Shown here piece after piece: positions 6,280-63,920 of a DNA stretch of 64,000 bases (position 1 is its first letter; every line of letters starts with the position of its first letter). Below the pieces are notes generated by a model. It saw only the letters and a program-made list of their open reading frames with translations, was not told where the DNA came from and searched no databases. The DNA comes from Fabrea salina (lineage: Eukaryota; Ciliophora; Heterotrichea; Heterotrichida; Fabreidae): the NCBI GenBank assembly GCA_022984795.1, contig JALIHJ010000048.1, positions 1-64,000 of the forward strand, written 5' to 3'. A program made the position numbers and the translations under genes.

Positions 6280-8223
6280 TTAAGTTTCTATAAACGTCTG
6301 CTCATGATGTCTTTTTATAGTTCCTGAGAACTTCCTTGGCTTCGGGTCAGTTTTAAATCCAAGCTTCGACTCAAGAATCCACCTGTGTTGCAAAGCTTGG
6401 TCTGCAGACATTCTTTGCTGAACGTCTCTGTTAAGCAATCCATTTAAAAAGTCTTTGCAGTCATTTGAGAGTTCGTCTAAATTGGGGTCTTCAAAGCTAA
6501 GTTCAGCGTGGAGAGTTAAGTTTATAAGTTCTTCTTTTTCGTCGTGGTCAAAAGGCAGTTTGCCTCTTAGTCTAAATAACACTTACAGTAGGTAAGAAAT
6601 CACTCCTAAACTCCACAAGTCAGCTTTCTGGTTATAGCCAGTGCCTTGAAGCACCTCAGGAGCTACGTAAGCCAAAGTGCCGCAAGCTAGTTTGAGTGAG
6701 TCGTTGGGACTTACTAGTTTAGACAACCCAAAGTCAGCAACTTTAATCATTGGGGTGCCTGAAGATGTGTTGACAAGGATGTTTTCAGGCTTAAGGTCCC
6801 TGTGGACAATCCCTATTTCATGCAAGTACTTCACAGTTTCAAGTAGTTGCTTGATGATTCCAAAAGCTTCAGCTTCTGAAAAAACTCTGTGTTTGCAAAC
6901 TAGTTCGTAAAGTTCTCCGTCTTCAGCAAGTTCCATAACAATGAATATTTGGTTTTTAGTTTCAAACACTTCTTTAAGGCGTATTACGCCTGGGTGCTTC
7001 AAAACCCTCATAATAGCTATTTCACTGCGAATAAGTTCTTTTTCTTCAGTTCTCAAGTTGGTTTTGCTGATTGACTTGACAGCCCAAGTTGACTTGGTAG
7101 TTCTTTCTTTGGCTTTGAATACATCTGAAAACTTCCCATGTCCAATGTTGCTTTTGAGTTTGTAGTGGTCTCTGAACTTCTTGATCCTAGCAGCAGCTTC
7201 GACCTTCTTAACCCAAATGGCTCTTTCTGTCTCTGAGTCACACCATAACTTAAAATTCTTATAGTTTTCATAGTTATGAGAAAGAAGCAGGGCGTATTTT
7301 CCAGCAGAGTTCTCTGTATCTACGTAGCACCCCTCCAAAAACACTATGCTTTCAGGAAAGGCATCTTGGGGGCTGTGCAGTAACATCAGTACTCTTTCTT
7401 GCAGTACTGCGAACTTTTTGTGCATCTTAGAAGAACCTTCAAAACTTCTGTAAAGGTACCCTTTGTGTTCGGGGTTCTGTATTATTGGCGAAAGGTCAAT
7501 AGTGTCTGCTCCACAAATCATTTTGGACTTTTTGGGCGAACACTCCCCGAAAGACCACATTTTTTCGTTGAAAGCACTGTCGAAGAGTTCCATCATCTGA
7601 GGGTAGTCCTCCAAGAAAAGTTTGAACTCTTCAAAGCCTAGTTGTCCTCCGTAGTTCTGCAAAACGGTTTCAGCAAACCCTTCAACTTCTTCAATGAAAG
7701 AAGTGCTTTGACTGCTCAAGTCTTTTTGAGGAGTTTTGAGGTCGATATCCAAAGGTCTTTTTTTAGGCGAGGAAACTATTGCTTTGGTCTGGTCCAGGCA
7801 GTTGTGGATCATGGCAACGAGTTCTGACTTGTCAATGAATCCGTCACTTTTAAGGTCGTATAAGTAAAAAAGTAACTTGCACTTTCCGTCTGCTTCAGCC
7901 CTGCAGCTTTTTTCTAGACCTTCCACAAACTCTTCAAAGTCTATGAGGCCTGTGTTTTTGGTGTCAAACAGTTCAAAAAGTCTTTCGCCTAGTAAGCCCT
8001 GTGTAAGTGTTACCGGTAAATTGAAGAACTGGAGGAAAGTAATTCTGTCAATCGTGGCTCCTTCTGAACGGTTTGCTAAGTCATTAAATAGCTCTGACAA
8101 AACACTGATTTCTTGGGAAGAAACTGTCTAAAAGTTACATTTGGATAAGATCCTTTTGATTTTCATGCGGGACAGCCCTAATACTTTTTTTTTAGGTTTA
8201 GTTTTTGACGAGCAGCATCCCAT
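6280..8223 (-). CDS. EF-hand/PH/CAMK kinase, CDPK7-like
   Basis: About 637 aa after removing two 15-nt introns (8124-8138 and 6572-6586). The true start at 8223 gives MGCCSSKTKPKKK, a myristoylation plus double-Cys palmitoylation signal. Without the first intron the frame would lack a proper ATG. Order: EF-hand pair (~75-150, FDTKNTGLIDFEEF and YDLKSDGFIDKSE), PH domain (~255-350, from KGYLYRSFEG to RAIWVKKVEAA), kinase (~360-615, with VHRDLKPENIL, DFGLSK, APEVLQG). The second intron joins ISYLL to LRGKLPF. EF-hands placed before PH and kinase match apicomplexan CDPK7. It lies 5 bp downstream of the next gene's stop. Confidence 0.88.
6572..6586 (-). other. 15-nt intron (kinase gene)
   Basis: Minus strand GTAAGTGTTATTTAG, A at position 10. 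Removal restores the kinase frame across subdomain X (SYLLLRGKLPF). Retention gives an immediate TAA. Confidence 0.93.
8124..8138 (-). other. 15-nt intron (kinase gene, 5' end)
   Basis: Minus strand GTAACTTTTAGACAG, A at position 10. It ends CAG, unlike the TAG of the others, and carries an in-frame TAG at its middle. Removal joins the MGCC start exon in frame to the EF-hand region. Confidence 0.8.
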
Positions 8224-9325: not shown

Positions 9326-11041
9326 ATGGCATATAATATGGATTGTTTAAGGAAGAAGTGTGAGAATGTTGCTTACAAGTGTGAATGTGGGTCTGTGCAC
9401 TTGTGCAAGGACCATATTGCAGATCACTTGTCAACTGTTGGCTCTCATAAAGTAGGCAATATTGATGCAGAAGGACTAATTAGCAGCTTTGAAGAGGTTT
9501 GCAGACTAGTGTCTTCTCAGCAAGCAGAAGTAATGAACCAAGCTGGTATAATTGTGGATTATGTTTTAAAAATCTCTTTAGAAGTGGTTAGGGAACTTGA
9601 AGAGTCCAAGAAAAAGTACTTGGTGCTTATTGAAGAGGTAAAAGAAAGTGGGTTCATGGAAGAACACTTGCAGAGCCTCCGAATTGGTTATGATAAGTCA
9701 AAAGAGCCTCCTTCCCTAAGGAAATATTTTGAATATGGTCAAATAGGTTGTTTATTTGAAGACCTTGAGATTGAGAAATATGATAAGTATGAACACTGTG
9801 GAAGTCGTTCTGTGGCAATAGAAAGTGACCAAGATGACCAAGGCAACTGTAAAACTTGCAGACCACTGCAGACTAGGCAGTGTTATCATTGCAGAGGCCA
9901 GAAGTACTCTTTTATCGAACTCGACTGTGATCACATTGTGTGTTTTGAATGTTATGAAAAGAATCAGGACCTATTTGAGCAAAAGCTTTGTCTAGACTGC
10001 AGAGTTAAGTGTGAACACTGTGAGAGTCCTTTTGTAAACTTACAACTCAAATGCAGTCATTCTCTGTGTGAAAATTGTGCTAAGGACCAAGACTTTTTGA
10101 TGGCTTCAGAAGGCAACTGCAAAACTTGCAGACCACTGGAGACTAGGCAGTGTTTGTGTTGTAAAGAACAGAAATACCATATCCGGCAGCTGAACTGCGG
10201 TCATACTGTATGCTACCAGTGCTTCGAGAATGATCGGACTAAGTTTGGAGATGGCTACTGCATAGACTGCAAGGTGGTGTGCAGGGATTGTAAGAGACTT
10301 TCTGCGCCAGCGAAACTGGACTGTGATCATTCTGTATGTAGTTTGTGCTACCAAAATAAGAATGGCTGTTCGGGGTGCCGCGCAGTAATATGCAAGAACT
10401 GTGGAGGTCATGCTGTGGTAATAGAAATTGACCAAGGTTACTTATGTATCGACTGCTCTCCAAAAGACCAATTAAGGGGTTTTACTTCTACTGCACCTGG
10501 AAAACTATGTAGCTTTTGTCATCTACAAGACTCTTCCAACCAAACCCTCAAGTGCGGCCATTTCGTTTGCCAGAAATGTTACCCTGTTCAAGAAAGATAC
10601 TTGAATCAAACTAAGAACTTGTGTGTGTTTTGCCATGAAATATCCAAAGCAGAGCACAAACTGGTGGCTAGATTCATTAGTGTGAACTCATGCAAGGAGT
10701 GTGGGCATAACTCAATGAGAGTTGAAGGAGAAAAGGCATTTTGCAGTCAATGCTCAAAAAAGCATTGTAGGTATTGTGGAGACACTATTATGTGGAAAAT
10801 TTCTTTGCACCGAAGTGTTTGCCAGGCTCTCGAAGGAAACATCATATCTCTGCATAAATTCAATGGCTGGCAAAAGGAATTGAAACACTGCGAAGGAGCT
10901 TACTGTCCTAACTGTAGAAAAATGCAAGCACATAGAGCAGGAGCCAAAGTAATCAGGTGCATTTACGACGGAACAGTGTTTTGCAAGGAGTGCTTAGAAA
11001 TGCTCCCAAGCATACACACTCCTCATAACCATAATCTATAA
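9326..11041 (+). CDS. Poly-RING/IBR-like protein A1
   Basis: 571 aa, extremely Cys-rich. Residues ~5-45 form a B-box-like finger (Cys/His with LCKDHIADH), followed by a short coiled coil (~55-115). From ~165 there are about five RING-like units of the form C-x2-C-x(9-13)-C-x-H-x2-C-x2-C, for example CEHCESPFVNLQLKCSHSLC. The C-terminus (~455-571) has an IBR-like zinc module (CSQCSKKHCRYCGD). Multi-RING plus IBR suggests an E3 ubiquitin-ligase or scaffold role, by inference only. The TAA stop (11039-11041) directly precedes the next ATG. Residues from ~173 on are nearly identical to A2. Confidence 0.9.
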   Translation: MAYNMDCLRKKCENVAYKCECGSVHLCKDHIADHLSTVGSHKVGNIDAEGLISSFEEVCRLVSSQQAEVMNQAGIIVDYVLKISLEVVRELEESKKKYLVLIEEVKESGFMEEHLQSLRIGYDKSKEPPSLRKYFEYGQIGCLFEDLEIEKYDKYEHCGSRSVAIESDQDDQGNCKTCRPLQTRQCYHCRGQKYSFIELDCDHIVCFECYEKNQDLFEQKLCLDCRVKCEHCESPFVNLQLKCSHSLCENCAKDQDFLMASEGNCKTCRPLETRQCLCCKEQKYHIRQLNCGHTVCYQCFENDRTKFGDGYCIDCKVVCRDCKRLSAPAKLDCDHSVCSLCYQNKNGCSGCRAVICKNCGGHAVVIEIDQGYLCIDCSPKDQLRGFTSTAPGKLCSFCHLQDSSNQTLKCGHFVCQKCYPVQERYLNQTKNLCVFCHEISKAEHKLVARFISVNSCKECGHNSMRVEGEKAFCSQCSKKHCRYCGDTIMWKISLHRSVCQALEGNIISLHKFNGWQKELKHCEGAYCPNCRKMQAHRAGAKVIRCIYDGTVFCKECLEMLPSIHTPHNHNL

Positions 11042-11047
11042 ATGGAT
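9841..11047 (+). repeat. Direct repeat copy 1 (poly-RING)
   Basis: Near-identical to 12257-13589. The offset is 2416 bp up to the 126-bp indel at about 10560, and 2542 bp after it. Identity runs through the stop codon and the first six bases of the following gene (ATGGAT). Confidence 0.9.
11037..11044 (+). promoter_or_regulatory. TATAAATG start context overlapping a stop
   Basis: The motif TATAAATG contains both the TAA stop of A1 and the ATG of B1. The same eight bases precede and include the start codons of many other genes here. Whether it works as a core promoter or a translation-start context cannot be told from sequence. Confidence 0.5.
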
Positions 11048-11887
11048 AATCTAGAGTGCGCCCAATACTGCCTTCTCTGTGTCAATAAGCCCGTAGAATT
11101 CCACGTGAACTTTTGCGAAATCCACGGAGTATGTGGTTCTCACTCTAAACTAAACCCTACTCTACACTGCAGGCTTTGCAAGTCAAAAGTAAAAGTCACA
11201 AAACATCCTCAGCAACCTCAGCAAGACCCTAACACAAAGGAAGAAGCCAGCGTTCCCAGAATTTTTTCCAAAGACACTTGTTTTGTGTGCAACTCAAACC
11301 CAGTAACAGGAACTTGCAGTTTCTGTGGAAAAAACCACTGTCAAGAATGCTGGGAAGAGTCAACTTCCTTGTGCACGTTTTGCAAAAGTAATTTAAATTC
11401 TCTTAACGGGTGTCTTTTAGAGAGTTCTGAGACTACACAGGATGCTTCAAGAGAACTTAAGTGCTGTGTCTGTCTGAAGATTTCAACTAAAGGGCTAGAC
11501 TGTGGTCACTTTTTTTGCGAGCAGTGCTTTAAAACACAGTGCTGTTTGTGCAAAGAAAAATCACCGTTAGATGGAAAGATAATTGCTGAGCCCTTTAAGT
11601 TTACTATTTGTCCTAAGTGCTCAGGCAGTAGTATGAACCCAGAGCCCCAAGTTATGATTTGTAAGGATTGCTCTGAAATGTTTTGTAGGTACTGCTGTGA
11701 AAAGGTTTTGTCGAGTTTTACACATTCCTATGTATGCAATGTTCTTAAACAATGTGTAGTTGACTTCGAACAGAAAAAAAAACTTATTAAGTTCCATCGG
11801 GTAAAAGTTTGCCCTGAGTGCAGAGTTGTTAGACTCTTTGATGCTAACTCTCAAGACAACTTTCTGGATTGTAATTGCCAATTATAG
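11042..11887 (+). CDS. RING/IBR-like protein B1
   Basis: 281 aa, Cys-rich. The N-terminal module (~5-55, CLLCVNKPVEFHVNFCEIHGVC) recurs at the start of A2 and B2. A Cys pair cluster follows (~80-120), then one clear RING-like unit (CCVCLKISTKGLDCGHFFC, ~140-160). The C-terminal IBR-like part (~185-281) has CKDCSEMFCRYCC and CPECRVVRL. It is shorter than its paralogs because it has one RING-like unit, not many. Its ATG follows the A1 stop with no spacer and in the same frame. Its TAG lies 4 bp from the A2 start. Confidence 0.88.
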   Translation: MDNLECAQYCLLCVNKPVEFHVNFCEIHGVCGSHSKLNPTLHCRLCKSKVKVTKHPQQPQQDPNTKEEASVPRIFSKDTCFVCNSNPVTGTCSFCGKNHCQECWEESTSLCTFCKSNLNSLNGCLLESSETTQDASRELKCCVCLKISTKGLDCGHFFCEQCFKTQCCLCKEKSPLDGKIIAEPFKFTICPKCSGSSMNPEPQVMICKDCSEMFCRYCCEKVLSSFTHSYVCNVLKQCVVDFEQKKKLIKFHRVKVCPECRVVRLFDANSQDNFLDCNCQL

Positions 11888-11891
11888 ATAA

Positions 11892-13583
11892 ATGGATTGC
11901 GGAGTTTTTTGCATGTGGTGTGGTAAACTAGCAGATTACAAGGTTAATCACGCAAGGATTCATGGTTTGTGTGGTGAGCATAAGCAATACGGAAAAGTGT
12001 CTTGCAAAAGGTGCAATTGCAGTGTTGATATTCTGTTTCATTCTTGGATTGAGAGGTGCCAACTCTGCAAAGAGAACCCTTTCTCAAATAAGTGCACTAA
12101 CTCTCACCTGGTTTGCATATACTGCTTTAATGAAAACTCCTGTCGCTTATGTGTATGCGAGCACTGTGGAAGCACTTCTATAGCTGAGAAACTGAGTTGT
12201 GATCATTCTCTGTGTGAAAATTGTGTTAAGGACCAAGACTTTTTGATGGCTTCAGAAAACAACTGCAAAACTTGCAGACCACTGCAGACTAGGCAGTGTT
12301 GTCATTGCAGAAGCCATAAGTATTATTTAATCGAACTCGACTGTGATCACATTGTGTGTTTTGAATGTTATGAAAAGAACCAGGACCTATTTGAGCAAAA
12401 GCTTTGTCTAGACTGCAGAGTTAAGTGTGAACACTGTAGAAGCCCTTTTGTTAACTTACAACTCAAATGCAGTCATTCTCTGTGTGAAAATTGTGCTAAG
12501 GACCAAGACTTTTTGATGGCTTCAGAAGGCAACTGCAAAACTTGCAGACCACTGGAGACTAGGCAGTGTTTGTGTTGTAAAGAACAGAAATACCATATCC
12601 GGCAGCTGAACTGCGGTCATACTGTATGCTACCAGTGCTTCGAGAATGATCGGACTAAGTTTGGAGATGGCTACTGCATAGACTGCAAGGTGGTGTGCAG
12701 GGATTGTAAGAGACTTTCTGCGCCAGCGAAACTGGACTGTGATCATTCTGTATGTAGTTTGTGCTACCAAAATAAGAATGGCTGTTCGGGGTGCCGCGCA
12801 GTAATATGCAAGAACTGTGGAGGTCATGCTGTGGTAATAGAAATTGACCAAGGTTACTTATGTATCGACTGCTCTCCAAAAGACCAATTAAGGGGTTTTA
12901 CTTCTACTGCACCTGGAAAACTATGTAGCTTTTGTCATCTACAAGACTCTTCCAACCAAACCCTCAAGTGCGGCCATGTGACTTGCAATAACTGCTATAC
13001 ACAGAACTATACTCAATTCCAAGGTGATTACTGTCTAGAGTGTCTTCCAATTTGTTACTGGTGTGGCAATAGTCAGATTTACTATCAACTAGAGTGCAAC
13101 CATTTCGTTTGTCAGAAGTGTTACCCTGTTCAAGAAAGATACTTGAATCAAATTAAGAACTTGTGTGTGTTTTGTCATGAAACATCCAAAGCAGAGCACA
13201 AACTGGTGGCTAGATTCATCAGTGTGGACTCATGCAAGGAGTGTGGACATAACTCAATGAGAGTTGAAGGAGAAAAGGCATTTTGCAGTCAATGCTCAAA
13301 AAAGCATTGTAGGTATTGTGGAGACACTATTATGTGGAAAATTTCTTTGCACCGAAGTGTTTGCCAGGCTCTCGAAGGAAACATCATATCTCTGCATAAA
13401 TTCAATGGCTGGCAAAAGGAATTGAAACACTGCGAAGGAGCTTACTGTCCTAACTGTAGAAAAATGCAAGCACATAGAGCAGGAGCCAAAGTAATCAGGT
13501 GCATTTACGACGGAACAGTGTTTTGCAAGGAGTGCTTAGAAATGCTCCCAAGCATACACACTCCTCATAACCATAATCTATAA
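11892..13583 (+). CDS. Poly-RING/IBR-like protein A2
   Basis: 563 aa. The N-terminal module (MDCGVFCMWCGKLADYKVNH, then RIHGLCGEH) is like those of B1 and B2, unlike the B-box start of A1. Seven RING-like units follow, each C-x2-C-x(9-13)-C-x-H-x2-C-x2-C and about 42 residues apart, from CEHCGSTSIAEKLSCDHSLC to CYWCGNSQIYYQLECNHFVC. The C-terminal IBR-like module is almost the same as in A1. It has one extra 42-residue unit that A1 lacks. The start lies 4 bp after B1 (context GATAAATG); its TAA is followed at once by the B2 ATG. Confidence 0.9.
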   Translation: MDCGVFCMWCGKLADYKVNHARIHGLCGEHKQYGKVSCKRCNCSVDILFHSWIERCQLCKENPFSNKCTNSHLVCIYCFNENSCRLCVCEHCGSTSIAEKLSCDHSLCENCVKDQDFLMASENNCKTCRPLQTRQCCHCRSHKYYLIELDCDHIVCFECYEKNQDLFEQKLCLDCRVKCEHCRSPFVNLQLKCSHSLCENCAKDQDFLMASEGNCKTCRPLETRQCLCCKEQKYHIRQLNCGHTVCYQCFENDRTKFGDGYCIDCKVVCRDCKRLSAPAKLDCDHSVCSLCYQNKNGCSGCRAVICKNCGGHAVVIEIDQGYLCIDCSPKDQLRGFTSTAPGKLCSFCHLQDSSNQTLKCGHVTCNNCYTQNYTQFQGDYCLECLPICYWCGNSQIYYQLECNHFVCQKCYPVQERYLNQIKNLCVFCHETSKAEHKLVARFISVDSCKECGHNSMRVEGEKAFCSQCSKKHCRYCGDTIMWKISLHRSVCQALEGNIISLHKFNGWQKELKHCEGAYCPNCRKMQAHRAGAKVIRCIYDGTVFCKECLEMLPSIHTPHNHNL

Positions 13584-13589
13584 ATGGAT
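12257..13589 (+). repeat. Direct repeat copy 2 (poly-RING)
   Basis: Partner of 9841-11047. It holds 126 bp (42 codons, one RING-like unit) at about 12977-13102 that copy 1 lacks. The indel edges fall between two similar C-x-H motifs, as expected for unequal recombination. Confidence 0.9.
13579..13586 (+). promoter_or_regulatory. TATAAATG start context overlapping a stop
   Basis: Same arrangement as at 11037-11044: the TAA of A2 and the ATG of B2 both fall inside TATAAATG. The flanks are identical because this end was duplicated with the upstream gene. Confidence 0.5.
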
Positions 13590-14543
13590 TGTAACCTGCT
13601 TTGTTTATTCTGCCGGGAAAAAGCAAGCTACTTTGTTAACTACTCCAGAGTCCATGCAGTCTGTGACCAACACACCCTAACTCCAATCCAAAGAAACACA
13701 TGCAGTATTTGTGGGTGCTCAGTCACTATAATTTTTTACTCTAAAATCCAAGAACAATGCAGCAGCTGCCCAAAAGCAGCAGTAACTAACCTAGACATCA
13801 ACTGTACCCACAAGTACTGCTATAGTTGTTACTTAGAAATCAAAGAATACTTAACACTTACACAAGGCTACTGCCACAAGTGCGTTCCTCCTGGCAAAGT
13901 ATGTAACCACTGCAAAGTGCAGCACACACAAACTCACGATCTAGACTGCAAGCATGTTTACTGTGGAGACTGTTTGGCAAAGTGGAATAATGAATGCCCT
14001 TTGTGTTCTCCTAAAGGTTTTTGCTTTGTGTGTAGTCAGCCTGTGGAAGAAAAACTGTCTAAGTGCACACACTTTGTTTGTGAAGCGTGTTATAAAAGCT
14101 CTAGCCACTTATCTAAAAGGAAAAACTGCTTATGCTGCATGGAAAGCAAAGAGGTTCCTACCAAGAAAATCAAACTCATCGACCAGACTGAAATGTGCAA
14201 GAACTGCTCTAGAAAGAGTTTAGTACCTAATGATAGTAGTTTGACTTGCTTTGAATGCAAAAAAATTTTTTGTGGTTATTGCTTATTAACAAACCCTGCG
14301 ATTAACCACTCAAAAAGATGTAGCAGAATAAAAAGCGATGAGTGGAGCTTAGAAAGATTCCAAGAGTGGAAGGATAAATTAAGGTTTCACAACGGAATTT
14401 ACTGTCCTTCATGCTTGGGCATTCAAGTGTTCGAGAAGACCAAAAGAGGTTCTGTAAGGTGCAAAGCAGACTGCAAAAAAATCTTTTGTCTAGAATGCCA
14501 TTCTTTACTAAGCCCTGAAAGAGCCAAGCTTCATAAATGCTAG
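13584..14543 (+). CDS. RING/IBR-like protein B2
   Basis: 319 aa, Cys-rich. The N-terminal module (CLFCREKASYFVNYSRVHAVC) matches B1 and A2. Three RING-like units follow (CSSCPKAAVTNLDINCTHKYC, CNHCKVQHTQTHDLDCKHVYC, CFVCSQPVEEKLSKCTHFVC). The C-terminal IBR-like module (~210-319) has CFECKKIFCGYC and CPSCLGIQVF and ends LHKC. It differs clearly from B1, so this pair is older than the A1/A2 duplication. Its ATG follows the A2 stop with zero spacer and in frame. It ends 28 bp before the kelch gene. Confidence 0.9.
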   Translation: MDCNLLCLFCREKASYFVNYSRVHAVCDQHTLTPIQRNTCSICGCSVTIIFYSKIQEQCSSCPKAAVTNLDINCTHKYCYSCYLEIKEYLTLTQGYCHKCVPPGKVCNHCKVQHTQTHDLDCKHVYCGDCLAKWNNECPLCSPKGFCFVCSQPVEEKLSKCTHFVCEACYKSSSHLSKRKNCLCCMESKEVPTKKIKLIDQTEMCKNCSRKSLVPNDSSLTCFECKKIFCGYCLLTNPAINHSKRCSRIKSDEWSLERFQEWKDKLRFHNGIYCPSCLGIQVFEKTKRGSVRCKADCKKIFCLECHSLLSPERAKLHKC

Positions 14544-14571: not shown

Positions 14572-17500
14572 ATGACAGGGTTTAAAATGCATTGGTTTCT
14601 GGTGTTAGTGACAACTGTAAGCTGTATGGAAATAGTTTCTATTCCCAGAGCAAACCCTCCACCTCCAAAAAGGCAGTCGAGTTCTATGACTTACTTAGAA
14701 ACTAAAGATGCCCTTTATTTGTTTGGAGGCTATGACCAAAAGTCTTCTTCGTTCCAAGACACTTGGGCTTACCGCCTGAACAAGAGTTCTTGGGAAGAAC
14801 TGACCCCTTATATGTACACTTTTCCCGGGAAAAGGTCTAGTAGTGGAAGCTTTGTTTACTCAGATGAAATCATTTGCTTTTTCGGTGGGTTAGGTGAAAA
14901 CGGTCCTCTTAGAGACACTTGGTGTTACGATGTTTCAGCTTTGGAGGTACTTGTTATTTAGTGGTTTCAATTACCTACTCAAGGAGACAAGCCAAGTCCT
15001 CGCTTGAGGTTTGGGTCATCATCTGGCAAGTTCAAATCTGCTAACTACTTTTTTGTGTTTGGAGGGTTCACTGAGTATGGACTTGAAAATGACTTGCACG
15101 GGTAAGAGTTACTTAGACTGAACCTGGAAACTCTGACTTGGGAGAAGTTAGAGTCTGGAGGACAACTGCCTCTTCCTAAAATGGGCTCTAGACTTGACTT
15201 CCGCGGAAACTACCTCTACCTCACTGGCGGAGAAACTTATGGACAACCCAACAACTACAAACCTGAACTTTTCAGGTACGACTTAACTAACCAAGTTTGG
15301 GAGGACCTTACTTCTTCCAGCATGTACACTAATGTTTACTTGCACGGCACTTGTGTCTACAACAACTACCTGTACATTTTTTATGGCTGGTCTAACGAGC
15401 TTTCGCAAGACGTAGACCAAGTTGCAAGAGTGAGTCTGGAAAGTGGCAGCTGGAACTGGGAAACACTGCAAGTTCAGAAGGGCCCTAACTACCACCTAGT
15501 GAAAAGGGACTCCTTTGGGTTTGCCAAGGTGGGAAGCCACTTCTACATGTTTGGGGGCTACAGTGAGTCTGGAATCAGGAATTCCTTGGTGCAGATAGAC
15601 CTGGACTCGCTTCAGTACTCAGTTGTAAGTGAAGACTTTGAAGGACCCTCTGAAAGAGCAGAGCACTCACTCATGCCTATTCTGGGCAAGTTCTACTTGT
15701 TTGGAGGCAAAAACGAAGGACAAAAGCTAGGGGACTTCTGGGTGTTTGACCCCTTAAAAGAGGAGTGGTCTGAACTTAAGTCAAAGGGCAACTTGCCTTC
15801 ACCAAGGTCGTCTTACGCACCTGGAACCTTTGCAGACAACTTAGTGGTTTGGGGAGGCGAAACTGAAGAAGGACTTGCCAACGACGCCCACATCTACAAT
15901 GCTTACTCCAACAACTGGAAACTACTGGAAGTCAGGTCAAGCAGTGCACCTAGTCCTAGAAAAGGAGCCTGTTTGGGAGTAGCACAAACCATCATTTACG
16001 TGTTTGGAGGAGAAGACAAGTCAGGCCCACTAGCAGACTTGTGGAAGTTTGACACTGGAGCAGGGACCTACGAACTACTTAGTGAAGGAAGCTTTGAAGG
16101 CCCAGGCAAAGTAGCTTATGCTGAGTGCAGCTTAGAAGGAGAAAAGCTCTACGTAATGTACGGAAGTAGCGAGTCAGAAACGCCTTTGGGAATGGTTTAC
16201 TACTTCGACCTTTCAACTAAAAGGTGGAAAAAGGTGTTTGATAACGGGTATAGCAGAGAAAGAAACAGAATTCAAGCTACTGTAAAAAAAATCGGAAACA
16301 AGGTATTTGTGGCAGGTGGCCAGATTTGGGGGATTCATCCTTCAAGCTCATTTTACTTACTTGACTTGGAAACTAACAACTACACAGACTACCCTGAACT
16401 ACCTGACTACAGCTTCAGTGCAGCTTCTACGTACTTCAAGTCCGACCTGTACATCCACGGAGGGTCTGCTACTTCTGGAGCAATTATTCGCAGGAAAATA
16501 ACCACCAATAAGTTTTACAAAATAAACCTGAACTCCCTTGAAGGCATATCTGGAATACCTTGCAGTCCAGGAACCTACCAAAGTGGTGAAGACTGCATAC
16601 TCTGCCCAAAAGGAAGTTACTCTTCTGAGTTTGGACAAACTTCTTGTAAGCAGTGCCGTCAGGGTACTTACAACTTTGAATACGGAGCCACGTCTATTCA
16701 GCAGTGTTACCCATGCCCAGACGGCACTTACGGGTCTCCAGAGTACAAGTCTTCTTGCATTCAGTGTCCTATAAACTTTGAGTGCCCTGTTGGAACAATT
16801 GAACCTATTGAGAAAAGACTGGAGCCCCAGTACTACTCCACACAACCAAAGTTCTACTCCTCGCCTACAGAGAAAGCCAAAGAATTAGTAACCAACTTAC
16901 GAACAGCTATAATCATCATTGGTGTAGTGGTACTAGCACTAATACTTGCTTTTAAGAAATGCAGACAGTTCTTAGTGAACTTTGATTTGTTTGAAGAGGG
17001 CCACAACCACGTTATTGACCAGCCAATGTACATTCGCAAAACCTTTTTCGGAGGACTTTTTTCAATCATCTTTATACTGATTGCACTAGTTCTGATGGCA
17101 GAAACAACAGTGTACTTCTTCATGGACAACTTGGAAGAAGCCAAAGCACTGGTTCCTTTTGTAGTGCTTGAAAACGAAAAAGACCACATAACTGGAGACA
17201 TCCAAGTAGAGCTTAAGTTCATTTACTACGGAGGCAACTGTGAAGAGGACGGCCGATGCAACCCTAGTATCCAAACAGAGTACACTAACTTCAACGGAGA
17301 GATGACTAAAACTTGCACTAAAGACCAAAGAAACCAGTGCAGAATGTTTTTTGAGTGTAAAAACTGTGAAATCCTTACTGGCTGCAGAATAAGTGTAAGC
17401 ATGGAAGAAGTGTTTTCTTACGCTTCTGGAATTGAACTGAACATGACTTCTACTTCTTCAATACCTGATGAGCCGAGCACAGTAGTGCAGTTTCTAAAAC

Positions 17501-18054
17501 CTTCAACTAATAAAATATTTAGGGGCCAGCAGCCAACGGTGTTTTCTATAATTTCAATTCCTTCAGTAAGACTTACTTAGCTATACAAAGACCAGGACCT
17601 AGAAGACACTGGGTACCACTTGTCAGGACTGGACTCTCCTAGCAGAGGCTCTGAATACAGCGTGAACGAGTAACTTAAAAGTAGGCTGTCTTTTACTTCA
17701 AGTTTAAAAGTAGAAATTCAAATACAAACTAGTGAAACTGGACTGTTAACAACTCGGAGTTTAAAGCAGACTTGGCTTTTGGTAGGCAGTGCCTTGCTGG
17801 GGTCTGTTTTTGGATTGATGGAAACCTTTGAGTTCTTTATGTCCTTCACAGAGGACAAGTACTTGTTTTTCGTTCACAAAAGAAAGCACAACAAGAAACT
17901 AGAAGACTGTCAAAGAAAAATTAAAACTATTGAGTCTTGTTTCGAAAAACAAGCATTAGTTCTGGAAACTGACGACTTCGTCAACGAAACTAAAATCCAA
18001 CAAGACCCTTCTGAGTTAGCTTCAACTGGTAATAAAGTGGTTCCTATGTATTAA
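14572..18054 (+). CDS. Kelch-repeat, GCC2/GCC3-like transmembrane protein
   Basis: About 1140 aa after removing four 15-nt introns (14947-14961, 15102-15116, 17566-17580, 17670-17684). The N-terminus has a signal peptide (HWFLVLVTTVSC). Residues ~40-640 hold a kelch beta-propeller series with recurring LYLFGG/FYMFGG/VFGGE strands. Residues ~645-745 are Cys-rich (CPKGSYSSEFGQTSC, CPDGTYG), like ephrin-receptor GCC2/GCC3 modules. Membrane helices lie near 767, 820-840 and 1045, followed by a charged tail. A surface or secretory-pathway receptor-like protein is likely; the ligand is unknown. It ends 2 bp from convergent CLPTM1. Confidence 0.88.
14947..14961 (+). other. 15-nt intron (kelch gene)
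   Basis: GTACTTGTTATTTAG, A at position 10, phase 0. The only one here starting GTAC instead of GTAA. Retention ends the frame at TAG. Confidence 0.92.
15102..15116 (+). other. 15-nt intron (kelch gene)
   Basis: GTAAGAGTTACTTAG, A at position 10, phase 2. Removal joins LHG to LNLETLTWEKL, a kelch strand. Confidence 0.93.
17566..17580 (+). other. 15-nt intron (kelch gene)
   Basis: GTAAGACTTACTTAG, A at position 10, phase 0. Downstream frame continues LYKDQDLEDTG. Confidence 0.92.
17670..17684 (+). other. 15-nt intron (kelch gene)
   Basis: GTAACTTAAAAGTAG, A at position 10, phase 2. Removal joins SVNE to LSFTSSLKVEIQ and leads into the last membrane helix. Confidence 0.88.
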
Positions 18055-43510: not shown

Positions 43511-46126
43511 TTAGTAAAAAGCTTTAATGTATTTTTCATTTGGCTTCTTCCTACAAAACGGACAAAACTTCAAGTTACTCGCATTGAGCACCTTACAGCA
43601 GTTAGAGCATATTGGCTTGCGGCTAGAAATCGTCACTGCGCTTCTGGTTGGTCTCTTTGACGCAGATGCAGGGCGTTGTAGTGGCTTGGGGTTTTCGCAT
43701 TCATAGCATCTTTTAGCTAAGGGAAAGTTTGTGGTTTTGCAGTTGCTGCACTTCCAAAACTTACTTACGCACTTTTCACAGCATAACTTGTCATAGAGTG
43801 TTTTTTTGCAGGTTCTACACTTATAAGAACTAACTTGAGTTTTGCAGAAGTAACAAAAAGACTTTTCTAAACCTTCTTTGCACACACAACACTGGTCAGA
43901 GCACTTACTGCAATAGGTTTCATTGAAGTTAACAGTATTCTTCTGGCACTTTTGGCACCTTTTTGCGTATCTGTACTCTTTACAGTTTCTACAAAAGTCC
44001 TCTGAAAGGTTGTAGTGCTTACAAAACTTGCACCTCCAAGAGTTTTCTCTGATTATTCTTTGCCTGTCCAAACAGTCTTCGCAAACTTTAAGAGACCCAG
44101 TTACTTCCTTGTCACAGTCTTCACACCTTTTAACTTTAACAGGAGTAGGTACTGTCCCCTTTACTCTTTTGCACTGTTTGCAACGAAAAGTGGTTTCTTC
44201 GTTTTTAAATGTGCAAACTTTGCAACTCCAGCCCTTTTCGTCAAACTTTAGTTCAGAACAGTCTGCACACACAAGGTTTTCTTGGTTGTTTAGTTTGCCA
44301 CAACTGCACTTCCAGTCCTTGTTTAGGGGAGACTCAAGTTTGCGTGTTATTTCTTTTCTGAGTTTTTCGCTAGTTTCGTAGTAAAGCTTTCCGTCTAAGT
44401 TCCTAGGGTAACTGGGCTTAGGAGGAGAGGTTGGATTTGGACGCTCCTTAGGCTTTGAAGGACTTCTTCCGTTAATTACTATCATTTCTTCTTTAGCTGG
44501 AGTTTCGAGTTCTTGACTACGTTTGGTGTTGTAGCATCCTCTGCATATGGTGTAGTGCTGCTCATTTTTGTAAGTGCAGTGCTTGCACACCCAACCATCT
44601 TCGCCTGGTTTAAGTTTGTTGCAAGAAGAACACACAGAGTACTTTTGGGAGTTGGGCACTCCGCAGTCGCACATCCAGACTCCGTATGAGTGCATGGACA
44701 TTTCTTCTTCTATGTTTATAACACTCTTTGCAGTTTCTTGGTTTTTGGGTTCCTCTTCAGTTTCTTCAAAATCAAAAGTAGGAACTTTGGGACTTTCAGG
44801 CAACTTCTTTTGGAAGCCTAAAGAAGACTTTGACCTAGTTTTGCTAGTTCTGTCGTCTGCTTTCCTCCCTCTGTTCCAGTTTTCATTGCTAACAGTCATA
44901 GCAACTTTTTCCTCCACTTCCTTTTTTTGCTTTTCTAACTCGTACCCAGCAACGTACCTTTCTAGGTCCAGCCACTCCGCTAGAGTCATGTCTACACTGA
45001 CTGTTTGGGTTTCTTGATAGAAAAATAACCCAACAGGGTAGAACCTCTTAGTAATAATGTCCTTGATCATTTGGGACCACTTTCCACTACTTACCATTCT
45101 GCAGAAGTCATCGTCTAGCTTGTACCAGTCGTTAGTTTCAGTGCTTCTCAAACAGTAAACGTAGTGCCCAAAGCCATAAAGGATCATACCTCTGAGGTTG
45201 TGAACTGTAGAAGGGGCTCCTAGGTAGACTTTGTCTAAGCTCAAAGTAAAGGGCAAACTTGCAATTACCTGGAGTATTTCTAGTTCTTTTGGAGTGGGGT
45301 TTTTCCAAATCATGTTTACAATAAAAACCTTAGGAACTGAGCCTAAGTAAAGCTTTTTGCGGCTTTTAGAAACCTCACACTCAGAGTCAGAGCATGCAAC
45401 CAGTTGAGTATCTTCCCACTGCTTCATCATGTGCTCTGCCAACTTGCCTTCGTTAGGCAGCACACTAGAGTTTTCTATATAGTCAAACAACTCCTGCTTG
45501 TTTCTGGCGTCAAGTAGTTTTTTGTATTCATAAGAAGAAGAAGCCTCTATGATAGAATTTACGTAGAAAGGGTGTGCAAAACAGGAGTAGTCCCACTCTA
45601 TTTTTTTGGACTCTCCACACTCGCAGGATATAAACTCTGTCACGCTTAGTTCAGCCACTTGGTGGGAAGGACACTTTTCCTTGCACTTTTGGTTTTCAGA
45701 AGCAGAAGTATTATGTACAGCGTTGAACAGTGCCAACAAAGCTTCCATAGCGTCAGCAGAACAAAAAAGCTGGAACTCCCCCAAGTGAGAATAGTCCTCA
45801 GCTAGTTTTTCTCGAAGAGCTGAAATCGAGACAGCTCCTCCGGTCTGGTTTTTTTTCTTGAAAAGGTATTCTTTGAGTACTTCTTGCAAACAGCACACAA
45901 GGCAGTTGGGGACCTTGCAGTCTTTACTTAGAAGCGAGTTTAAAAACCCGGGCATGTGGCATAAGGCTTGGAGTGCACTGTTCAAAAAGCAGTTCTGCTC
46001 GCCTATGTAGTTCTTGAATCCCACTGCTACTTGGGTTGAGTATTTTTGGGGGAAGTTACCCGGACAATAGTTTTTATGTATTTCTGGGAACTTAACTTCT
46101 CTGCGGCAAAGTGCACAAGTTATCAT
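43511..46126 (-). CDS. Ubiquitin-specific protease with RanBP2-type zinc fingers
   Basis: 871 aa. The N-terminus has a small Cys/His finger (CALCRREVKFPEIHKNYC). The USP catalytic domain (~35-360) has NYIGEQNCFLNSALQAL with the Cys, GFGHYVYCLR with the His, and WYKLDDDF with the Asp; the Cys box resembles USP53/54. Zn-binding CPSH and CECG lie in the fingers subdomain. From ~480 on there are at least six W-x-C-x(2-4)-C-x3-N-x6-C-x2-C RanBP2/NZF-type fingers plus CxxC ribbons. NZF fingers bind ubiquitin or RNA, so a chain-selective deubiquitinase is likely. It starts 53 bp from the next gene's stop. Confidence 0.92.
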   Translation of the reverse strand: MITCALCRREVKFPEIHKNYCPGNFPQKYSTQVAVGFKNYIGEQNCFLNSALQALCHMPGFLNSLLSKDCKVPNCLVCCLQEVLKEYLFKKKNQTGGAVSISALREKLAEDYSHLGEFQLFCSADAMEALLALFNAVHNTSASENQKCKEKCPSHQVAELSVTEFISCECGESKKIEWDYSCFAHPFYVNSIIEASSSYEYKKLLDARNKQELFDYIENSSVLPNEGKLAEHMMKQWEDTQLVACSDSECEVSKSRKKLYLGSVPKVFIVNMIWKNPTPKELEILQVIASLPFTLSLDKVYLGAPSTVHNLRGMILYGFGHYVYCLRSTETNDWYKLDDDFCRMVSSGKWSQMIKDIITKRFYPVGLFFYQETQTVSVDMTLAEWLDLERYVAGYELEKQKKEVEEKVAMTVSNENWNRGRKADDRTSKTRSKSSLGFQKKLPESPKVPTFDFEETEEEPKNQETAKSVINIEEEMSMHSYGVWMCDCGVPNSQKYSVCSSCNKLKPGEDGWVCKHCTYKNEQHYTICRGCYNTKRSQELETPAKEEMIVINGRSPSKPKERPNPTSPPKPSYPRNLDGKLYYETSEKLRKEITRKLESPLNKDWKCSCGKLNNQENLVCADCSELKFDEKGWSCKVCTFKNEETTFRCKQCKRVKGTVPTPVKVKRCEDCDKEVTGSLKVCEDCLDRQRIIRENSWRCKFCKHYNLSEDFCRNCKEYRYAKRCQKCQKNTVNFNETYCSKCSDQCCVCKEGLEKSFCYFCKTQVSSYKCRTCKKTLYDKLCCEKCVSKFWKCSNCKTTNFPLAKRCYECENPKPLQRPASASKRPTRSAVTISSRKPICSNCCKVLNASNLKFCPFCRKKPNEKYIKAFY

Positions 46127-63113: not shown

Positions 63114-63920
63114 TTAAGTTTCAGAGTCACAGGGGTTTTTGCACGTGGGACAAAGTCGTGAGTGAGGAAGCCACTGGTCTATGCATTCCTTGTGGAACAA
63201 GTGGAAGCAGGGCAAAACCTTCACCTCGTTTCCAATGCCGAACTCGTTCATGCAAACTAAACAGCTTTTTTGTTCGTCGTTGCTGGGCAACTTTTCAAGT
63301 TGGAAGCAAGGAAGTTGTTGGATTAGGTTCTGGGACAGTTCGGAAGATATCACTCTCATTGTGTGCATGATTTGCGTGAGTTGACTCAAAAGAGCCCTGT
63401 TGTGCACTATTATTGAGTCAGAACGTCTTCTGCGCAGGAGTTTGCCGTCGTAAACTACTCTAGTTTCAGGACTTACTACTCCGTAGCCAGGTCGGGAGGC
63501 ATCTACTCTGAAGTCTATTCCCTGGATGCTAACTACTTTTCCTTGGTATAAAACTCGATTCCACCCTTTCAGGTAAGGCATTACAAAACAGTCTACTACA
63601 CTAGGAATAAGATCTTCTCTGTCCATAGTTCGGAATTCCAAAGGCACACTGTCTGCAAAAGGAATTAAAGAAACTCTTTGGAGCGGGTCTGCAGGGTGTT
63701 CCACGTACTCAAGAAGGGTTTCCTGGGTAAATATTCCGTTGGAAGGGACGCATCTAGCCACCACGCACTCCAAGCCCCTGATGTTAAGGTGCTGTTCTTC
63801 GTGTAGGTGTTTAGGCTGCTCTTGCAAGTAGGGAAATATAACATCTTGAAAGATGTCTGTTGTTATTGAATGGGGCGCTAGTGGAACTATTTTAACTCTT
63901 TCTAAGCTAGAGTCACTCAT
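63114..63920 (-). CDS. RING-H2 protein with Cdc48-N-like region
   Basis: 268 aa. The C-terminal RING-H2 (~223-265) reads CLVCMNEFGIGNEVKVLPCF, then HLFHKECIDQWL and CPTCKNP, the C3H2C3 order of E3 ubiquitin ligases. The N-terminal ~15-165 holds beta-rich segments (GLECVVARCVPSNG, VVSIQGIDFRVDA) that resemble the substrate-binding fold of Cdc48/p97-N or Ufd1. That likeness is tentative. Role unknown. Confidence 0.85.
   Translation of the reverse strand: MSDSSLERVKIVPLAPHSITTDIFQDVIFPYLQEQPKHLHEEQHLNIRGLECVVARCVPSNGIFTQETLLEYVEHPADPLQRVSLIPFADSVPLEFRTMDREDLIPSVVDCFVMPYLKGWNRVLYQGKVVSIQGIDFRVDASRPGYGVVSPETRVVYDGKLLRRRRSDSIIVHNRALLSQLTQIMHTMRVISSELSQNLIQQLPCFQLEKLPSNDEQKSCLVCMNEFGIGNEVKVLPCFHLFHKECIDQWLPHSRLCPTCKNPCDSET

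Follow-up and report, generated by a model that had tools for sequence, protein, structure and literature searches.

RING domains normally occur singly or in pairs within one protein. A Drosophila and Protein Data Bank (PDB) survey reports a C-loop proline in 50 of 57 solved RINGs, and lists one N-loop and one C-loop hydrophobic residue among the direct contacts with E2 (PMC3166285). The RBR (RING1-BRcat-Rcat) ligases are described as requiring a catalytic cysteine in their Rcat domain, which in Parkin belongs to the triad Cys431/His433/Glu444 (PMC3940038). For some RING pseudo-ligases of the TRIM family, ligase activity is said to be undetectable (PMC11992055). Here we describe four neighboring genes at positions 9326-14543 of a 64,000-nucleotide stretch of the heterotrich ciliate Fabrea salina (contig JALIHJ010000048.1, positions 1 to 64,000, forward strand), which was analyzed as a whole and is referred to as the window. 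Judged from their sequence, the encoded proteins are strings of RING-HC domains joined by short linkers; they close with two modules, one IBR-like and one Rcat-like, the latter lacking a cysteine at the place expected for the catalytic residue. We propose that the four genes form a tandemly duplicated poly-RING family of non-catalytic scaffolds or pseudo-ligases, in which gene 4 perhaps keeps one live RING, a reading whose chances we regard as evenly balanced.

Overall organization of the four genes

The locus comprises four abutting, co-oriented open reading frames (ORFs) on the plus strand, all in the standard code, in line with an initial sequence-only reading that had described four co-oriented Cys-rich genes here. 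Cysteines account for 11 to 15% of the residues in the four proteins. Gene 1 (9326..11041, 571 residues) has an N-terminus of its own, followed by five RING units and an IBR-like end. The much shorter gene 2 (11042..11887, 281 residues) contains a RING-like Cys-rich module, one RING unit, an IBR-like module and a truncated second end module. Gene 3 (11892..13583, 563 residues) is the richest in RINGs, with eight units (seven strict and one with C-x3-H), in addition to one four-Cys module and an IBR-like end. Gene 4 (13584..14543, 319 residues) has three RING units and two complete IBR-like ligand sets. Genes 2, 3 and 4 could be aligned from their first residues, and share by eye a common start of the form MD..C..C....H..C..H.

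The repeat units and their RING identity

A six-ligand unit, C-x2-C-x(9-13)-C-x-H-x2-C-x2-C, occurs 5, 1, 7 and 3 times in genes 1 to 4 (for gene 3 the pattern gives 8 raw matches, one unit being matched twice), compared to means of 0.002, 0.0025, 0.0135 and 0.005 in 2000 composition shuffles. Every unit extends to a further C-x2-C and adopts the eight-ligand C3HC4 pattern of a RING-HC; the strict counts are again 5, 1, 7 and 3, with means of 0.0003 to 0.0023 per protein in 3000 shuffles. No other occurrence of this strict pattern was found in the six frames of the window. Residues 56-87 of gene 3 hold an extra unit with C-x3-H, which brings gene 3 to eight units and the four genes to 17 (16 strict and one variant).

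All units lie on the plus strand, and their nucleotide positions were derived from residue numbers. Following the ligand pattern, gene 1 has its five units at 9881-10000, 10010-10129, 10151-10270, 10280-10378 and 10508-10633, and the single unit of gene 2 sits at 11462..11551. The eight units of gene 3 are found at 12057-12152 (the C-x3-H variant), 12156-12275, 12297-12416, 12426-12545, 12567-12686, 12696-12794, 12924-13043 and 13053-13175, and those of gene 4, for which Pfam adds to the ligand pattern, at 13758-13883, 13902-14006 (the best Pfam score) and 14022-14138. Spacings of 43 and 47 residues alternate within the runs, giving a two-RING period of 90 residues (270 nucleotides), and spacings of 40, 48 and 76 residues are also present. 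Only 3 or 7 residues link the units in the regular runs. In addition, residues 80-114 of gene 2 (11279-11383) form a Cys-rich module, C-x2-C-x8-C-x2-C-x4-C-x2-C-x7-C-x2-C, which falls outside the counted pattern. It is the site of the best Pfam match of gene 2 (Prok-RING_2, 20.9 bits against a cutoff of 22.4), overlaps a match to ANCHR-like_BBOX at residues 80-107 that is likewise below cutoff (18.1 against 27 bits), and is perhaps a diverged RING.

We built a profile from 14 of the 17 units, leaving out units 3 and 4 of gene 1 and residues 56-87 of gene 3. The alignment has exactly eight invariant columns, which are the ligands and are invariant by construction, the units having been picked with the ligand pattern; little else is invariant. 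Searching PDB sequences with this profile (hmmsearch) yielded 143 distinct sequences up to an E-value of 1, and the best 60 of these 143 include RNF4, TRIM5 (E 1.3e-6), TRIM34, TRIM30, RNF8, TRIM56 and other E3 RINGs. The top match, RNF4 at E 1.4e-7, is a two-RING chain whose separate stretches score 0.00046 each. When ten stretches were scanned singly, the first two units of gene 4 passed the zf-C3HC4 cutoff of 21 bits (22.0 and 23.5 bits), whereas none of the four whole proteins passes the cutoff of any Pfam family. Weak Pfam matches to PS_Dcarbxylase, Zn_ribbon_IS1595 and SecB were judged to be chance and were rejected. As judged by profile, the array units are RINGs, and the RING-like label of the sequence-only reading is thus upheld. 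Its counts of 5, 1, 7 and 3 hold for the six-ligand unit, but the units have eight ligands and gene 3 has eight RINGs; its flat spacing of about 42 residues does not hold.

Residues at the predicted E2-contact face

The residue before the fifth ligand is hydrophobic in 16 of the 17 units and that after the sixth ligand in all 17 if Ala is included, consistent with retention of the RING core. To read the E2 face, we assume that particular positions of the units correspond to the N-loop, C-loop and polar positions of the RING survey. On this assumption the C-loop proline is present in one of 17 units and an Ile, Val, Leu or Met of the N-loop in three, and no unit of the 17 has both. The proline is rarer than in the survey (PMC3166285), with a Fisher p of 5e-10 for the 17 units and of 2e-7 for the 12 without the five of gene 1, in a test that takes related units as independent. 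By comparison, five PDB RINGs whose alignments were inspected all have C-x-I-C and the proline. The unit nearest to canonical is the second of gene 4 (13902-14006), which has CPLC and a Trp, but a His in the N-loop. In genes 2 and 4, the N-loop hydrophobic is kept in the unit directly before the IBR-like module.

The C-terminal IBR-like and Rcat-like modules

Each of the four genes has a C6HC module, C-x2-C-x13-C-x2-C-x4-C-x2-C-x(8-10)-H-x3-C, whose spacing we take to be that of IBR/BRcat domains. By this ligand pattern the modules are located on the plus strand at 10691..10822 in gene 1, 11609..11737 in gene 2, 13233..13364 in gene 3 and 14196..14321 in gene 4. A second, Rcat/IBR-like module follows on the same strand at 14403..14540 of gene 4, with counterparts at 10904-11038, 11810-11884 and 13446-13580. 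It is complete in gene 4, in which a CP-x-C pair is followed by five Cys, at +19, +23, +28, +31 and +45, and by a His at +43. The Cys at +23 is absent from genes 1 and 3, and gene 2 ends early, leaving the module truncated. In all four genes, the stretch from the CP-x-C pair to the following Cys, which comes 14 to 16 residues later, is free of Cys. The catalytic residue would presumably lie here, as set by the similar spacing of the Parkin Rcat (Cys431 between the second and third ligands) and not by an Rcat alignment.

Similarity searches gave weak matches for this region. The Pfam IBR family scores best on the second module of gene 4, at 20.4 bits against a cutoff of 24.3, and B-box-like and zinc-ribbon models score similarly weakly on the end region. 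A profile of the end module returned four PDB matches up to E 10, the best at E 0.017 and none of them an RBR. AlphaFold models of genes 3 and 4, based on four-row family alignments, are poor (mean pLDDT 37 and 42). The Foldseek top match of both models is the HOIP RBR (E 0.021 and 0.044; probability 0.14 and 0.60; query TM ~0.1), in a search in which Cys-rich models may attract zinc proteins generally; no match of either model has an E-value below 0.001. The HOIL-1 IBR-RING2 ranks 4th and 8th and Parkin further down; the remaining matches include GATA and ribosomal zinc proteins. Altogether, ligand pattern and models are suggestive of an end that is RBR-like, not an RBR.

The ligand pattern lends support to the IBR-like end of the sequence-only reading, with weak backing from Pfam and Foldseek, although two modules were found instead of one; the structure prediction proposed then, which covered genes 3 and 4 as whole proteins, gave the HOIP RBR as the top but weak match of poor models. 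The reading had also offered two functions. For most units, that of a ubiquitin ligase finds no support, with the E2-contact residues mostly absent and no Cys at the expected catalytic place, and its alternative of a structural zinc array is the better fit.

Duplication and change in array length

Genes 1 and 3 are not independent of each other. The stretch from 9844 to 11047, beginning within gene 1, is 98% identical to 12260-13589 from gene 3, in an alignment of two blocks that are 719 and 497 nucleotides long, and the latter copy is longer by exactly 126 nucleotides, which equals one RING unit. Counted from codon 175 of gene 1, where the alignment turns firm, 19 of 397 aligned codons differ. 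None of these lies in codons 238-414 or 461-571 of gene 1, so that the differences are patchy, as they might look after gene conversion. Synonymous differences number 11 on 227 sites and non-synonymous ones 10 on 964 sites (binomial p 0.0006), which indicates that the protein sequence is kept; by this measure the shared part of the two genes is under purifying selection. No zinc ligand differs between them. Within gene 3, a 98-nucleotide stretch (12203..12300) is 96% identical to 12473-12570, located 270 nucleotides, or two RINGs, downstream.

The N-terminus of gene 1, up to about residue 155, comprises a Cys/His-rich start and a probably helical part (by eye). Searched against the remainder of the window, these first ~155 residues gave no match at E 1; gene 1 thus resembles a copy of gene 3 to which another N-terminus has been fused. 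The Cys/His-rich start matches no Pfam family at E 0.01. It precedes the RINGs of gene 1, and the TRIM order of RING, B-box and coiled coil was not seen by eye.

At the joints between genes 1 and 2 (11039-11044) and genes 3 and 4 (13581-13586), stop and start codons touch in frame as TAA|ATG, while four nucleotides separate them between genes 2 and 3 (11885-11894). The duplicated block ends 6 nucleotides past the stop. As both touching joints are inside its copies, they probably represent one event. Gaps of at most 27 nucleotides are found at 10 of the 21 co-oriented junctions in the window (by gene models that miss gene 2), including the gap of 0 between genes 3 and 4. An operon or readthrough as the main claim was set aside, as the touching joints belong to a duplicated block and short gaps are common in the window.

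Codon usage

The codon-preference scores of genes 1 to 4 are -0.030, 0.001, -0.029 and 0.059, compared to 0.042 to 0.172 for 18 other scored ORFs; genes 1-3 thus fall below all of these and gene 4 near their low end. The scores of all four genes are nevertheless 4.3 to 6.7 standard deviations above a random-synonym null. Low expression would explain such a weak codon preference, a weakness that also caused a simple gene finder to overlook gene 2 and the beginning of gene 3.

Genomic setting

The window begins with ~1.08 kb (1-1084) of CCCTAACA-type telomere repeat, in which variant repeats such as CCCCTAACA and CCCCAACA are scattered. A repeat of the CCCTAACA type has been reported for Blepharisma, in which UGA encodes tryptophan (PMC9942806). 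The window has 47 ORFs of at least 130 residues, of which 42 were kept; the other five, each overlapping a larger opposite-strand ORF, were dropped. These 42 end in TAA (28), TAG (12) or TGA (2), five of them in or at a putative 15-nucleotide intron. A sense reading of TAA and TAG throughout was rejected, as ORFs of up to 1051 residues are free of both. Among GTA..TAG stretches of 12 to 23 nucleotides, a length of 15 is the most frequent, with 39 cases compared to 18 to 32 for the other lengths. When only introns of 15 or 16 nucleotides were allowed, a simple gene model comprising 48 genes contained 14 introns. For Stentor, the standard code and introns of 15-16 nucleotides have been reported (PMC9505925). 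Telomere repeat, stop usage and intron length together indicate that the contig most likely represents the end of a macronuclear chromosome from a Stentor-like heterotrich.

Downstream of the array (14626-18054, plus strand) lies a gene for a large protein that combines Kelch repeats with Cys-rich repeats of the ephrin-receptor type; four introns of 15 or 16 nucleotides are predicted in it. Upstream, a single ORF on the minus strand (6583-8100) combines EF-hand, PH and protein kinase domains, an uncommon mix. At 43511-46126, the minus strand encodes a ubiquitin carboxyl-terminal hydrolase (UCH, E 2e-18) whose tail is Cys-rich, with RanBP-like zinc motifs by eye and one Pfam RanBP stretch (24.6 bits against a cutoff of 27); it is a second zinc-rich ubiquitin-pathway gene in the window. 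An ordinary single RING-H2 gene (zf-RING_2, E 1.7e-13) lies at 63114-63920 of the minus strand.

Discussion

We propose that the units adopt the RING fold and coordinate zinc, and that most of them have lost the E2-activating surface. The array would then act as a zinc-stabilized multivalent protein-binding scaffold, as a pseudo-ligase or adaptor, with an RBR-like end that would also be non-catalytic. In gene 4 the second RING comes nearest to the canonical form, albeit with a His in the N-loop; this member may still recruit E2 and could partner the longer scaffolds, and the family would change its length by whole RING units.

Several points weigh against this proposal. The ligand invariance is built into the choice of units, the Fisher test treats relatives as independent, the models are poor, and the match of the loop positions to those of the survey is assumed. 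An Arg or Lys follows the eighth ligand in 10 of 17 units, and Arg alone in 7 of 17, which does not differ from the 24 of 57 in the survey (PMC3166285). RBR RING1 is described as engaging E2~ubiquitin unlike canonical RINGs (PMC5758712), so the canonical contacts are possibly the wrong yardstick for the last unit. The same basic residue supports the strongest rival, in which the proteins are active multivalent E3 ligases, several of whose units bind E2~ubiquitin and whose stringing raises the local E2 concentration or pairs RINGs within a chain. The zf-C3HC4 score of the second gene 4 unit, with its CPLC and Trp, and the N-loop hydrophobic kept before the IBR-like module of genes 2 and 4 point the same way, and TRIM5alpha is reported to be stimulated by the proximity of three RINGs (PMC9675739). 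Against this, the C-loop proline and the N-loop hydrophobic are mostly missing and never occur together, and we consider such activity unlikely, albeit the likeliest of the rivals. Another rival, a true RBR ligase with extra RINGs and a thioester cysteine, agrees with the order of RING, IBR-like and Rcat-like modules and with the Foldseek ranks of HOIP, HOIL-1 and Parkin. It conflicts with the missing Cys at the expected place in all four genes, as placed by the Parkin spacing, with the subthreshold Pfam IBR score and with the lack of an RBR among the four PDB matches of the end module, and it seems to us barely tenable.

The modules might instead bind nucleic acid or simply hold zinc, the link to ubiquitin being only ancestral. 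GATA and ribosomal zinc proteins (Foldseek) and zinc ribbons (Pfam) among the weak matches would suit this possibility, whereas the best profile matches of the units are E3 RINGs and the counted units have C3HC4 spacing; we think it rather improbable. Decay of a duplicated cluster into pseudogenes or an unstable, functionless array would account for the low codon scores, the misses of the gene finder and the second end module that is incomplete in three of four genes. Four open frames, the synonymous excess between genes 1 and 3, and codon scores well above the null argue against decay, which we judge very improbable. Beyond our preferred scaffold proposal, a bolder form of it, which we find quite doubtful, is that heterotrichs possess a class of catalytically silent poly-RING rods, in which a RING repeat scaffold grows or shrinks in steps of one (126 nucleotides) or two (270 nucleotides) units and carries a dead RBR-like cap. 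On this bolder reading, as TAA and ATG touch in frame between genes 1 and 2 and between genes 3 and 4, stop-codon readthrough could yield fused forms of ~850 and 880 residues.

If the scaffold proposal is true, an eight-RING protein that has kept the core and mostly lost the E2 face would represent a case in which the RING fold has been turned into a repeat scaffold, and would offer a natural means of telling the RING residues needed for folding from those needed to activate E2. Genes 1 and 3, which differ by one unit, preserve a recent and legible trace of how array length changes. No title or abstract start among the literature matches listed, all from open-licence papers, describes a poly-RING protein of this architecture, which is weak evidence for the undescribed family that the sequence-only reading had suggested, and a term search did not find the word "ubiquitin" in the main text of a Stentor regeneration study (PMC9371601). 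No relative was confirmed from 2, 77 and 1 pattern matches in three scans of viral contigs or from 80 in each of two scans of prokaryotic genome contigs, sources with little bearing on ciliates.

Compared to the RING-HC E3 domains of RNF4, TRIM5 and RNF8, the units share the eight ligands, the spacing and the hydrophobic core, with profile E-values of 1.4e-7 to 4e-5; they differ in that up to eight are present per chain and in that the E2-contact proline and N-loop hydrophobic are mostly absent. The resemblance to the RBR ligases HOIP, HOIL-1 and Parkin consists of a RING followed by two IBR-like ligand sets at the C-terminus, together with the weak top Foldseek match to HOIP. Unlike these ligases, the proteins have a poly-RING N-terminal part, no Cys at the expected catalytic place (by the Parkin spacing), a second module that is incomplete in three of four genes and an IBR score below the Pfam cutoff. 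The TRIM pseudo-ligases also have a RING, but theirs belongs to the TRIM family whereas the present genes encode RING arrays, and no homology is implied. Overall, the modules are known, and it is their arrangement that looks unusual.

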